From: Chitinophaga pinensis
Lineage (GTDB): Bacteria > Bacteroidota > Bacteroidia > NS11-12g > UBA955
Direction: 5' to 3'
Length of the DNA: 64,000 nt
Assembly (NCBI GenBank): GCA_945877575.1
Contig: CAMDUE010000014.1
Coordinates: forward strand, 1-64,000
Shown here piece after piece: positions 52,979-56,794 of the stretch. Within the stretch, counting starts at the first letter, position 1; every line of letters starts with the position of its first letter. The position numbers and the translations under genes are program-made. The notes under the pieces are model-generated. The model was not told where the DNA came from. It made no database searches and was given only the letters and a program-made list of their open reading frames with translations.

Positions 52979-53015
52979 TGTGATTTTTGTCATTTTATTT
53001 GTGGATTGAAATAAT

Positions 53016-53023
53016 TAATTTTG
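53016..53023 (+). promoter_or_regulatory. -7 promoter element of the MbnPH-like cassette
   Basis: TAATTTTG, exact TAnnTTTG, ending 4 nt before the ATG at 53028. Confidence 0.65.
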
Positions 53024-53027
53024 CTTC

Positions 53028-53432
53028 ATGAGGTTCAAAAAATCATCTTCGTATTCGAACAAATGGTTTGCCTCAATGCTATTATTCGCTTTGTTTTTCC
53101 AAAGTTTGATACAACTTTTTCATATCATTCACTTTGAATTCAATAAAGATGAAATCATTAAAACCAGTTGCGTGCAGAGATACGCCGTAAAAAACTGTTG
53201 CCAAGGATCTTGCCACATAAATACTAAACTAAACGTCTCAAAAACATCAGAAGGCACAGAATCTGAAGTACAACCTACCATTGTATTTCCCGAAGTTTTT
53301 TGCGAAAAACAATACAAAAAACAAATTCCATCAGATTTTTTTTCTGTGAGGTTGTTCACTTCAAAAAATGTTTACTTCAAAACCAGTCTACTAAGCAATA
53401 TAGACCCACCCCCACCTAAGTGTTTTTCTTGA
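53028..53432 (+). CDS. Small membrane-anchored Cys-rich protein, first gene of copper-type cassette
   Basis: 134 residues. One N-terminal hydrophobic span (about 14-33) could be an anchor or signal. A NCCQGSCHINTKL motif follows near residue 55, giving a possible CCxxxCH metal site, and the end is DPPPPKCFS. Small proteins with a CxGxC motif and a proline-rich tail recur near metal genes in Bacteroidota. It precedes MbnP- and MbnH-like genes by 56 bp. Function not established. Confidence 0.55.
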   Translation: MRFKKSSSYSNKWFASMLLFALFFQSLIQLFHIIHFEFNKDEIIKTSCVQRYAVKNCCQGSCHINTKLNVSKTSEGTESEVQPTIVFPEVFCEKQYKKQIPSDFFSVRLFTSKNVYFKTSLLSNIDPPPPKCFS

Positions 53433-53488
53433 TTTCGGATCCCCGCGCAATTGACGGGTCATTTAATTGCAATCTAAAACATTAAATC

Positions 53489-54268
53489 ATGAAAAACACC
53501 ATTATTTGGTTGTCTCGTGCTACCCTTTGGGCAGCCTTGACCATTATCGCTTTACCATTGTTATTTTCTTCATGTACAGAAGAAGAAAAACCCAATAATT
53601 CTCCTAAAGTAGGAAACCTAACCATTGAAATTGATCATGTTTGGGGAATGGATCAAAAACCATTCCTCATGAACACCCCAATTGTACATCCTATGTCGGG
53701 CGATACCATGACCTTCAGTCTCATTAAATATTATTTATCAAACTTTGAGTTAATTAAGGCCGACGGCTCTTCCTACAAAGTACCAAATTCCTACTTTTTA
53801 GTGAGCGAAACCGACAATAAAATTGAACTAAAAAATATCCCAATGGGTGAATATACCGCAGTAAATTTTTTAGTAGGTGTAGATAGCGCTGCCAACAACA
53901 GTGGTTTACAACAAGGAGCATTAAATCCATCAAACGGAATGTTTTGGAGTTGGTCAACTGGATACATTTTTATTCGAGTTGAGGGAACATCCCCGCAAGC
54001 TAAAAACAATACCTTTCTTTTTCATTTAGGAGGATACATTCCACCCTACAGTGCAATTCAAAAGAAAAACATGATTCTTGGAGGAAACAGTGTTTCTATA
54101 AAGCCAGATGCAGCTCCCGTTTTACACATCAAAACCAATGTTGCCAGATTGTGGCATGGGCCTGTAAAACTAGCCGATGTAAGCGTAGTGCATAGCATCA
54201 GTGATTTATCTGTTTCAATGTCTGCGAACTTTCGTGACGGAATACTTTTTGACCATATTCATCAATAA
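53489..54268 (+). CDS. MbnP-like copper-binding lipoprotein
   Basis: 259 residues. Lipobox LLFSSC (Cys29). The body matches the MbnP domain: IEIDHVWG (His50), FSLIKYYLSNFELIKADGS, and the conserved segment MFWSWSTGY with Trp153 and Trp155. In methanotroph MbnP a tryptophan is oxidised to kynurenine and helps bind copper; whether one of these Trp is the modified residue is an inference. The partner enzyme gene is 3 bp downstream. Confidence 0.8.
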   Translation: MKNTIIWLSRATLWAALTIIALPLLFSSCTEEEKPNNSPKVGNLTIEIDHVWGMDQKPFLMNTPIVHPMSGDTMTFSLIKYYLSNFELIKADGSSYKVPNSYFLVSETDNKIELKNIPMGEYTAVNFLVGVDSAANNSGLQQGALNPSNGMFWSWSTGYIFIRVEGTSPQAKNNTFLFHLGGYIPPYSAIQKKNMILGGNSVSIKPDAAPVLHIKTNVARLWHGPVKLADVSVVHSISDLSVSMSANFRDGILFDHIHQ

Positions 54269-54271
54269 ATA

Positions 54272-55276
54272 ATGAATGCCCTATCGTTAAAAGGGTTAAC
54301 TAACGGCAGAATATTACTTTTGGTTTTTATTCTGCCGTTAATTGAAACTAGTTGTCAAAAAAACGCTACTGATTCAGAATTTAAATTTCCCGCTGATTTC
54401 CCGTCAATACAATATAAAAATTTAGAAAATCAACTAACTCCACAAAAAATACATCTCGGAAGAGTCCTCTTTTACGACCCCAATCTATCGTCTACCAGAA
54501 CCATTTCATGCGGCAGTTGTCATGCCCAAGTACATGGATTTGCAGATCATAATCTACCTAAGAGTTTTGGCGTACATAATCGCATAGGTATGAGAAATAG
54601 TCCGGCACTTCAAAATTTGGCTTGGAATACGCATTTTATGTGGGACGGAGGCATAACCCATCTTGATGTAATGCCCATTGCCCCCATTACCGATGTAAAC
54701 GAAATGGATCTTCCTCTGGGAGAAGCTATAGAAAGAATAAGAGAGAACAAACAGTATCTTAATTTATTCAAAAAAGCATACGGTGACACCATCATAAACG
54801 AGAAAACCGTGCTCTTTGCTCTTTCTCAATTTATGCTAACGTTGGTCTCAGATCAAAGTAAATATGATGATGTTCGACGTGGAAAAACAAATTTCAATCA
54901 AATTGAATCCAAAGGCTACCAAGTCTTTAAAAATCATTGCGTTAAATGTCACTCTGAACCCCTACTAACAAACAACCAAATGGAATACAACGGTTTGACA
55001 GTAAAATCAAAAGACTTGGGAAGATTTAGAATTACACAAACACTGAAAGATACCTTTCACTTTAAAGTCCCTAGTTTAAGAAATGTTGCTTTAACCTATC
55101 CTTACATGCATGATGGATCCTTTTCTAATTTAGATCAAGTATTGAAAGCCTATCAAACAAAATTTCAACTTGAAAATCATGACCTAGAAGCCCTGAGAGC
55201 TTTTTTAAATTCTCTAACTGACCATAAATTTATTTCCAATTTAAACCATGCAGAAATTCATCCCTTCAATCCATAA
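54272..55276 (+). CDS. MbnH-like di-heme cytochrome c peroxidase-family protein
   Basis: 334 residues. Lipobox IETSC (Cys28). Two heme c sites: C80-G-S-C83-H84 and C223-V-K-C226-H227. The order and the late motif YMHDGSFSNLDQVL place it in the MauG/cytochrome c peroxidase/MbnH superfamily. Next to an MbnP homologue, MbnH is the best reading: it oxidises a partner Trp to kynurenine. The 3' end overlaps the barrel gene by 29 bp. Confidence 0.85.
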   Translation: MNALSLKGLTNGRILLLVFILPLIETSCQKNATDSEFKFPADFPSIQYKNLENQLTPQKIHLGRVLFYDPNLSSTRTISCGSCHAQVHGFADHNLPKSFGVHNRIGMRNSPALQNLAWNTHFMWDGGITHLDVMPIAPITDVNEMDLPLGEAIERIRENKQYLNLFKKAYGDTIINEKTVLFALSQFMLTLVSDQSKYDDVRRGKTNFNQIESKGYQVFKNHCVKCHSEPLLTNNQMEYNGLTVKSKDLGRFRITQTLKDTFHFKVPSLRNVALTYPYMHDGSFSNLDQVLKAYQTKFQLENHDLEALRAFLNSLTDHKFISNLNHAEIHPFNP

Positions 55277-56222
55277 ATCAATAATTATCATTTTTTTCAC
55301 AGCTATAACAGCGACATTAAATGCCTGTGATATATGTGGCAGCGGACTTCGAGATGCTTCTTTTTCTATGGGATATTTACAAACCATTCCTTCTCATTTT
55401 TTGGGTGTTTGGGGAAACTCGCTCGGTTTCAATACCCAAACCGGATATTCCAATGGCACTAAATTCAACGTTTCTGACAGAATCCTTCAAACAGGCATTG
55501 TTTTTAACCAACAAATCAATCAAAAATTACAGATCAATTACCGTCAAGGCATCCAACAGATAAGTAGACACAACGAAGACAATGAAAATAAAACCAATAC
55601 CTATTCGGGTTTATCTGATTTAAGTGTGGCAGTAAATTACACACTAATTGACAGCCGAAAATTCGCCATAAAGAAAACCAAACAACTGGGTTTAACCTCG
55701 TTAAATGTGAAAATACCCAACGGACATTACCAATTGAGAGATGGGTATAAACGAATGCTACCCATGAATTTACAACCCGGAAATGGCTCTTATGGAATAG
55801 GCGGTCAAGTACTTTATGGTATTTTCAAAAACGGATGGAATTGGAACATGCAACTTTCAGCCTTTTATAATTTTGAAAATGAACTGAAATACCAACAAGG
55901 AGACAATCAAATAATTCGTTCAGGAATTGGAAAAGCCTTCAGCTCTAAAAAAATTATATTCTTGCCTATGCTTGGATATCAATACCAACAATTTGGACCA
56001 GATTTAACCTACCGCGAAAGAGTAACAACTACTGGCGGCAATGTTCAAACCATCTTCATTCAACTGGAGTGGATTAGACAAAACTTTTATGGTCGTTTCC
56101 AAGGAAACATCCCAGTGAAACAAACCCTTCCTGATTTTGCACCACAATCTACTAACCCAATCATGCTGACTTTGGGATGGTTGATTAACCAAAATTCAGA
56201 GGATATCAAGAGTTTTGATTAA
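55248..56222 (+). CDS. Outer-membrane barrel protein of the MbnPH-like cassette
   Basis: 324 residues. A hydrophobic signal sequence runs to about residue 23 (FFTAITATLNAC), followed at once by a CDICGSG motif that could bind metal or carry a lipid. Repeated strands such as QINYRQGIQQISR, LSVAVNYTLID, WNMQLSAFYNF and IMLTLGWLI suggest a barrel. It starts inside the end of the mbnH-like gene, so translation is coupled. I infer it exports or imports the metal or its carrier; family not certain. Confidence 0.65.
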   Translation: MQKFIPSIHKSIIIIFFTAITATLNACDICGSGLRDASFSMGYLQTIPSHFLGVWGNSLGFNTQTGYSNGTKFNVSDRILQTGIVFNQQINQKLQINYRQGIQQISRHNEDNENKTNTYSGLSDLSVAVNYTLIDSRKFAIKKTKQLGLTSLNVKIPNGHYQLRDGYKRMLPMNLQPGNGSYGIGGQVLYGIFKNGWNWNMQLSAFYNFENELKYQQGDNQIIRSGIGKAFSSKKIIFLPMLGYQYQQFGPDLTYRERVTTTGGNVQTIFIQLEWIRQNFYGRFQGNIPVKQTLPDFAPQSTNPIMLTLGWLINQNSEDIKSFD

Positions 56223-56233: not shown

Positions 56234-56794
56234 ATGGCAACGACTCAAGATATTTCTGTTGGGAATTTTATTCGCTATAACGGAGAATTAGTTCAAATCA
56301 TTGAATGGCAACACCGTACTCCGGGTAACTTGCGCGCATTCTATCAAGCTAAAATGCGTCGTGTTAAAGACGGCAAATTAGCAGAAAACCGCTTCAGAAG
56401 TGGTGAATCTGTTGAAATAGTGCGTGTTGAAACCCATGAATTGCAGTATTTATATGAAGAGGGCGATGCCTATGTTTGCATGAATAATGAAACCTATGAC
56501 CAAATTCCAGTGGCAAAACACCTGTTTGGCGAGGGAGCAAAATTCATGAAAGAGGGAGATACCGTGATGATCGCTTTCGAAAGCGAAACTCCAATTTCTG
56601 CTGAACCCCCAAACTATGCAATTTTGGAAATCACCTACACCGAACCTGGTGTTAAAGGCGATACCGCAACCAATACTCTTAAACAAGCCACAGTGGAAGG
56701 CGGTGCTACAGTGATGGTTCCTTTGTTTGTGGATACCGGGGAAAAAATCAGAATTGATACCCGCAACGGATCATACATGGAACGAGTGAAATAA
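56234..56794 (+). CDS. efp: Elongation factor P (variant loop without the modified Lys)
   Basis: 186 residues, three-domain EF-P: N-terminal KOW-like domain and two OB folds, with YTEPGVKGDTATNTLK and IRIDTRNGSYMERVK intact. It relieves ribosome stalling at polyproline. The tip loop that normally reads PGKG (modified Lys) or SGRN (modified Arg) here reads PGNLRAF, with Asn32 in the modified position. The ATG at 56234 is chosen by the family N-terminus and promoter; a start 9 bp upstream would lie at the promoter. Followed by an agmatinase-like gene after 8 bp. Confidence 0.95.
   Translation: MATTQDISVGNFIRYNGELVQIIEWQHRTPGNLRAFYQAKMRRVKDGKLAENRFRSGESVEIVRVETHELQYLYEEGDAYVCMNNETYDQIPVAKHLFGEGAKFMKEGDTVMIAFESETPISAEPPNYAILEITYTEPGVKGDTATNTLKQATVEGGATVMVPLFVDTGEKIRIDTRNGSYMERVK

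Follow-up and report, generated by a model that had tools for sequence, protein, structure and literature searches.

A conserved Bacteroidota cassette combining an MbnP/MbnH pair and an outer-membrane barrel with a putative copper-sensing leader peptide

What could four tightly packed genes, two of which resemble the MbnP and MbnH genes, do in a bacterium of the Bacteroidota, and what is the task of the small protein encoded in front of them? We addressed this question in a 64,000-nt stretch of contig CAMDUE010000014.1 (assembly GCA_945877575.1; hereafter the window), whose host genome is a 2.5-Mb Bacteroidota draft. Four open reading frames (ORFs) lie on the forward strand at 53028-53432, 53489-54268, 54272-55276, and 55248-56222, encoding proteins of 134, 259, 334, and 324 amino acids (genes 1 to 4). 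A first-pass annotation had described them as a packed set with one 29-bp overlap, and the ORFs were found exactly so, the overlap being that between gene 3 (MbnH-type) and gene 4 (barrel). From the sequence evidence below, we propose that these genes probably form an operon for copper handling that is controlled by a nascent chain, a stalling leader peptide, which gene 1 would encode.

Gene 1 (53028-53432, forward strand) encodes a protein with a hydrophobic N-terminal segment, a CxxxC(H) motif (Cys58-Cys62, C-Q-G-S-C-H; codons 53199-53213), and a proline run (Pro127-Pro130; codons 53406-53417) that lies four residues before the stop and is the proposed stalling motif; the product is a candidate copper-sensing arrest peptide of the CutF/CruR kind. 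Among 62 aligned members of the leader family, Cys48, Cys58, Gly60, Cys62, and the C-terminal Pro-Pro pair were invariant. The CCxxxCH motif pointed out in the first-pass annotation is present as CCQGSCH; however, the core motif of the family is CxxxC plus the C-terminal Pro-Pro, and the Cys doublet is individual variation. All 69 leader members carried a Pro-Pro pair within the last 13 residues, compared with 2.5% of background ORFs; the spacing from CxxxC to Pro-Pro was mostly 64-70, and the usual ending was I-F-H-P-P followed by two to four residues. In independent loci, 59 of 59 new members showed Pro-Pro within their last 15 residues, and because these members were found by a profile without the C-terminal 45 residues, the result is not circular. 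The family was present in 136 of 395 sampled Bacteroidota genomes and has no credible Pfam or NCBIfam model, and the window protein had no Pfam match. Membership in DUF2946 (PF11162) was considered and rejected for want of a match to the Pfam model: this model gave no match above the cut-off in ten leader-carrying genomes, and the 25 Pfam models matched most often by the 62 aligned members did not include it.

The genes that follow the leader were co-directional with it in 68 of 69 cases. Among 66 such next genes, 25 matched the TonB-receptor plug, 17 MbnP, and 7 YtkA, and several others encoded the barrel; genes for PepSY_TM, SCO1, PCuAC, AhpC/TSA, and DUF411 occurred farther 3'. Published CutF-like proteins were collected by a filter of fewer than 150 amino acids, Pro-Pro in the 15 C-terminal residues, an N-terminal export signal, and a co-directional next gene no more than 1000 nt away (PMC9973294). 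The window leader agreed with this filter at every point, having 134 amino acids, PPPP at residues 127-130, and a 56-nt gap to the next gene, with a hydrophobic stretch judged by eye as its export signal. The first-pass annotation had regarded the two flanking genes as an import or export path. Given the CxxxC motif, the fixed Pro-Pro, and the variety of copper operons headed by the family, gene 1 appears to be a regulatory leader ORF with no part in transport, and this suggestion is not supported for gene 1; for the barrel, which has a COG4313-like fold, it stays plausible.

The end of the leader ORF is predicted to pair with the start of mbnP. The 5' arm of this stem (53420-53435, forward strand) spans the last leader codons and the stop codon, and the 3' arm (53484-53499) holds the mbnP start codon (53489-53491); 15 of the 16 positions pair. 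When the window region was folded (z -3.0), none of 200 shuffles was as stable, and none of 3,000 dinucleotide shuffles gave an arm-to-arm duplex as strong. Pairing of the leader end with the next start exceeded that at other gene junctions in the family set (p 5e-10) as well as in the independent set (6.5e-6). With one member retained per 40%-identity cluster (21 clusters), the excess persisted (p 6.7e-5; 0.03 when compared with partners swapped between loci), and the swapped-partner control excludes the trivial complementarity of TTT-CAT (Phe-His) codons to ATG-AAA. Generic folding of the leader-mbnP gap was weakly enriched (p 0.02); thus, the directed arm-to-arm test was used. One related locus (L032) showed the same stem geometry in different letters. 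The proline codons end 2 nt 5' of the 5' arm, and a ribosome halted there would therefore open the stem.

To survey the gene order, loci were picked by the MbnP pattern only, from named genomes of Pedobacter, Hymenobacter, Crocinitomix, Owenweeksia, Saprospiraceae, Schleiferiaceae, and others, and the counts refer to 68 MbnP loci with room on both sides. All four genes (leader, MbnP, MbnH, and barrel) were present in 33 of the 68, and the leader stood directly 5' of MbnP in 47. The four-gene order, whose survey the first-pass annotation had suggested, is far above chance, and the set is a conserved Bacteroidota cassette. The earlier idea of an MbnP/MbnH pair without methanobactin genes in a non-methanotroph was likewise borne out, the pair being embedded in this conserved set. 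The MbnH and barrel genes overlapped in 29 of 44 junctions, which suggests coupled translation.

Gene 2 (53489-54268, forward strand) encodes a lipoprotein of the MbnP family that is proposed to bind copper. It reached 171 bits against Pfam MbnP (PF20243; gathering score 27; E 3.1e-50), and 50.9 bits against the closest NCBIfam model, TIGR04052 (MbnP_like_WxW), which lies under the equivalog cut-off of 140. A profile built from 23 relatives had a single solved match, 7l6g (Methylosinus trichosporium MbnP). The AlphaFold model (pLDDT, the predicted local distance difference test score, 88.5) led to the same structure, as its six best Foldseek matches were the six chains of 7l6g (E 5e-10 to 6e-9), with a probability of 1.0 and a TM score of about 0.5 for the match at 5e-10. 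The WxW motif (Met151-Phe-Trp153-Ser-Trp155, codons 53939-53953) lies where the first-pass annotation had placed a modifiable Trp; Trp153 was present in 23 of 23 rows of the MbnP alignment (A3), and Trp155 was nearly invariant. His179 (codon 54023-54025), a proposed copper ligand, was invariant in the same alignment, so that Met151, Trp153, Trp155, and His179 are all kept and align with GMAWNW and a His of 7l6g. In Methylosinus MbnP, the first Trp of WxW was reportedly (2021) converted to kynurenine in dependence on MbnH, and Cu(I) is said to lie next to a His and a Met; from its position, Trp153 is thus the predicted kynurenine.

Gene 3 (54272-55276, forward strand) encodes an MbnH-type di-haem enzyme with a match to Pfam CCP_MauG (8.8e-48), and the pairing of an MbnP-like with a di-haem MbnH-like gene in the first-pass annotation stood. 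Its haem motifs are CGSCH (54509-54523) and CVKCH (54938-54952), and Tyr294 (55151-55153) occupies the position of the Met haem ligand of peroxidases, as does a Tyr in 147 of 153 relatives; MauG and MbnH likewise have a Tyr at this position. Two CxxCH motifs together with this Tyr agree with the MbnH type. In a search with the family profile, 6e1c (MbnH) ranked first at 7e-81, above all peroxidases, and an MbnH gene adjoined MbnP in 67 of 77 MbnP loci. Both proteins had been annotated as lipoproteins, which holds for MbnP; the lipobox of the window MbnH (IETSC) is poor, although that of most relatives is good.

Gene 4 (55248-56222, forward strand) is, by its AlphaFold model (pLDDT 81, 12 strands), a 12-stranded outer-membrane channel-like barrel, with the COG4313 outer-membrane channel 4rl8 (1.5e-11) and FapF as its best Foldseek matches. 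The window barrel had no Pfam match, and PF13557 (COG4313/Phenol_MetA_deg) was matched by 5 of 18 relatives. A motif of the C..CG type occurred near the N-terminus in 63 of 73 barrel relatives; in the window it is CDICG (55326-55340), within the CDICGSG named in the first-pass annotation, and is predicted to be periplasmic. A transport role is plausible because of the fold similar to the COG4313 channel, and the cargo may be copper.

The MbnP/MbnH part of the cassette is ordinary for Bacteroidota: PF20243 was found in 54 of 57 related genomes, and the occurrence of such pairs far beyond methanobactin producers, outside methanobactin operons, was stated as early as 2013 (PMC3621798), so that the pair itself is not new. 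Another MbnP/MbnH pair of the window genome lacks both leader and barrel (contig C7; L068, 4753-6686); in it, GLHWGW replaces GMFWSW, the ligand Met being replaced and a His adjoining the first Trp; this LHW variant is common to many relatives. In a further MbnP subclass beside MbnH, W-P-x-x-M-G-G-G-Y stands in place of WxW with loss of the second Trp (L049, 4964-5827; L084, 5917-6639; L088, 5917-6642), and this subclass forms one branch of the tree. The WxW motif was kept in 64 of 67 MbnP loci with a neighboring MbnH and in 2 of 10 without (77 loci in all), one of these two ending at the edge of its contig stretch; the second Trp was lost in 8 of the 10. Most genomes with an unpaired MbnP carry MbnH-like enzymes elsewhere, and four loci from a set selected on WxW (L197, L254, L260, and L269) keep the motif without an adjacent MbnH. 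By counts, the second Trp tracks MbnH adjacency strongly; however, the tree contains only two independent losses, and the association was set aside as suggestive only.

Variants of the cassette were also observed. The order leader-barrel-MbnP-MbnH was seen as an alternative, and leader-barrel and leader-MbnP-barrel were seen as partial sets. In L175, L176, L178, L191, and L172, a version free of both MbnP and MbnH consists of the leader, a CDxCGC barrel, and a small lipoprotein with HxxP/HCHP-like residues at its end. The loci L135, L138, L140, and L148, from Flavobacterium-like genomes, contain tandem copper operons, with a leader, a YtkA-like gene, and a TonB receptor followed by a second leader, MbnP, and MbnH. 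The leader-MbnP-MbnH set was also present in the gammaproteobacterium Glaciecola amylolytica (CP034120.1, L207), where it was probably acquired by horizontal transfer, since its sequence is of the Bacteroidota type. In the window, a weak pattern match to a Bacteroidota-type promoter (TTTG-N14-TAATTTTG, 52998-53023, forward strand) lies 4 nt 5' of the leader ORF, and an mRNA started from this candidate would thus be almost leaderless; the pattern occurred 7 times in the window against 5.5 expected, which is chance frequency. Directly 3' of the barrel gene lies a gene for elongation factor P (EF-P; 56234-56794). Because a related cassette (L033) has no adjoining EF-P gene, this proximity was probably coincidental, and EF-P was rejected as a member of the system.

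How might these parts work together? We infer that the leader product would be exported co-translationally and would sense copper through CxxxC. When no copper is on the nascent leader, the ribosome would halt at the C-terminal PPPP. In the folded mRNA, the last leader codons would pair with the mbnP start codon, and the ribosome halted at PPPP would occupy the 5' arm and leave this start accessible, so that MbnP, MbnH, and the barrel could be made; copper on CxxxC would release the halt and turn off what would be a copper-starvation operon. MbnP would then be lipidated, MbnH would oxidize Trp153 to kynurenine, and a Cu(I) site would form with Met151 and His179, whereas the co-translated CDICG barrel would probably pass or hand over copper at the surface. 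More tentatively, and with a little less than even confidence, we suggest that copper-sensing arrest peptides of one Bacteroidota-wide family (CxxxC...[I]FHPP) regulate TonB receptors for copper, MbnP/MbnH, and the CDxCGC channel in the same manner, the leader end remaining paired to the next start as long as no stalled ribosome opens the stem.

Other explanations have to be weighed against this operon under leader control. That gene 1 encodes a copper chaperone functioning in the membrane or periplasm, or an export or import partner of MbnP, would agree with its hydrophobic N-terminus, its conserved Cys and His residues, and its position beside MbnP; we consider this unlikely, as the stretch between CxxxC and Pro-Pro is barely conserved and yet the Pro-Pro is fixed near the C-terminus in every member, and the family also heads operons without MbnP. 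Gene 3 as an ordinary bacterial peroxidase is quite improbable: classical peroxidases (3o5c) did score above 6e1c when the single sequence was searched, but the family profile reversed this ranking, and the Tyr found where peroxidases have their Met ligand and the adjacency to MbnP also argue for the MbnH type. That the system serves a different metal, for example zinc or iron, is very improbable; two loci (L144 and L155) have a Fur-like regulator and a P-type metal ATPase nearby, whereas the SCO1, PCuAC, YtkA, and DUF411 neighbors and the MbnP site itself indicate copper. The alternative that concerns the switch itself is that the leader works as CutF proper, with copper promoting the stall and the operon being copper-induced for detoxification. 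CxxxC and the stem over the next start resemble CutF more than CruR; however, the neighboring operons contain uptake and assembly genes and not efflux genes, which makes this version somewhat doubtful. Since the leader family otherwise heads operons of the copper-uptake type, the switch likely has the sign of CruR, with expression when copper is scarce and shut-off once the leader has bound copper.

Several observations weigh against control by a copper-sensing leader, or against single steps of it. Of all the steps, the sign of the switch is the one most in doubt, since CutF and CruR give opposite responses to copper. The relation of the leader to both appears to be one of anatomy, without detectable homology. 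The pairing between leader and start was missing in some relatives, alifold found no common stem across the whole set, and compensatory base changes were not demonstrable, the Pedobacter set being too uniform to decide. EF-P relieves ribosome stalls at consecutive prolines, and the EF-P encoded next door may do so at the proline pair of the leader. As for the enzyme, gene 3 scored 190 bits against TIGR04039, under the equivalog cut-off of 363, and was therefore named MbnH-type, although TIGR04039 was still its best-scoring NCBIfam model; the single-sequence ranking of peroxidases above 6e1c points in the same direction.

What is new is the combination, in Bacteroidota, of two known kinds of system: MbnP/MbnH and a copper-sensing leader. 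To our knowledge, control by a stalling copper-sensing leader has so far been studied only in Proteobacteria, and we know of no test of either kynurenine copper sites or copper-sensing leader peptides in Bacteroidota. The cassette joins these two lines of research and offers a large unnamed family of leader proteins a definite function that can be tested. It also extends the MbnP system by an outer-membrane channel and makes the leader ORF a ready handle for finding copper-uptake operons in Bacteroidota.

Compared with MbnP/MbnH of Methylosinus trichosporium (PF20243/TIGR04052 and TIGR04039; 7l6g and 6e1c), the window pair shares family, fold, WxW, the Met and His positions, the two haem motifs, the Tyr, and adjacency; it differs in scoring under the NCBIfam equivalog cut-offs, in being lipoproteins, in the absence of methanobactin genes, and in having a CxxxC...PP leader in front and a barrel behind. 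In CorA/CorB and MopE/SACCP of methanotrophs, a kynurenine-containing copper protein of the cell surface similarly occurs next to a di-haem peroxidase (PMC3912023, PMC3621798), but the sequences are not markedly similar (PMC3621798). The barrel shares its 12-stranded fold with the COG4313 channel (4rl8) and FapF at 12-15% identity, and its N-terminal CDxCGC motif is particular to the window barrel family.

CruR and CutF are both short exported proteins that head copper operons and control them by stalling (PMC9426467, PMC9973294). In CutF of Rhodobacter capsulatus, CxxxC is combined with a C-terminal proline motif and a stem-loop hides the next start, and the survey of CutF-like proteins holds many Bacteroidota members (PMC9973294); thus, the class is not new. 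The leader family resembles CutF in its length below 150 amino acids, export-type N-terminus, CxxxC, C-terminal Pro-Pro, same-strand next gene, and stem over the next start; it differs in lacking detectable DUF2946 homology, in its mostly F-H-P-P motif, and in having uptake, MbnP, or barrel genes downstream where CutF is followed by a multicopper oxidase. CruR of Bordetella pertussis (DUF2946) has CXXC and a C-terminal proline motif, and its operons contain TonB receptors, PepSY_TM, SCO, PCuAC, and MbnPH (PMC9426467). The leader family likewise stands first in operons with these genes, with a Cys pair at fixed spacing, and the Pro-Pro of CruR lies three residues from the end, as in the leader family; however, CruR has CXXC and RAPP where the leader family has CxxxC and FHPP, and Rho-dependent termination has been shown for CruR, whereas pairing over the start codon is suggested for the leader family.

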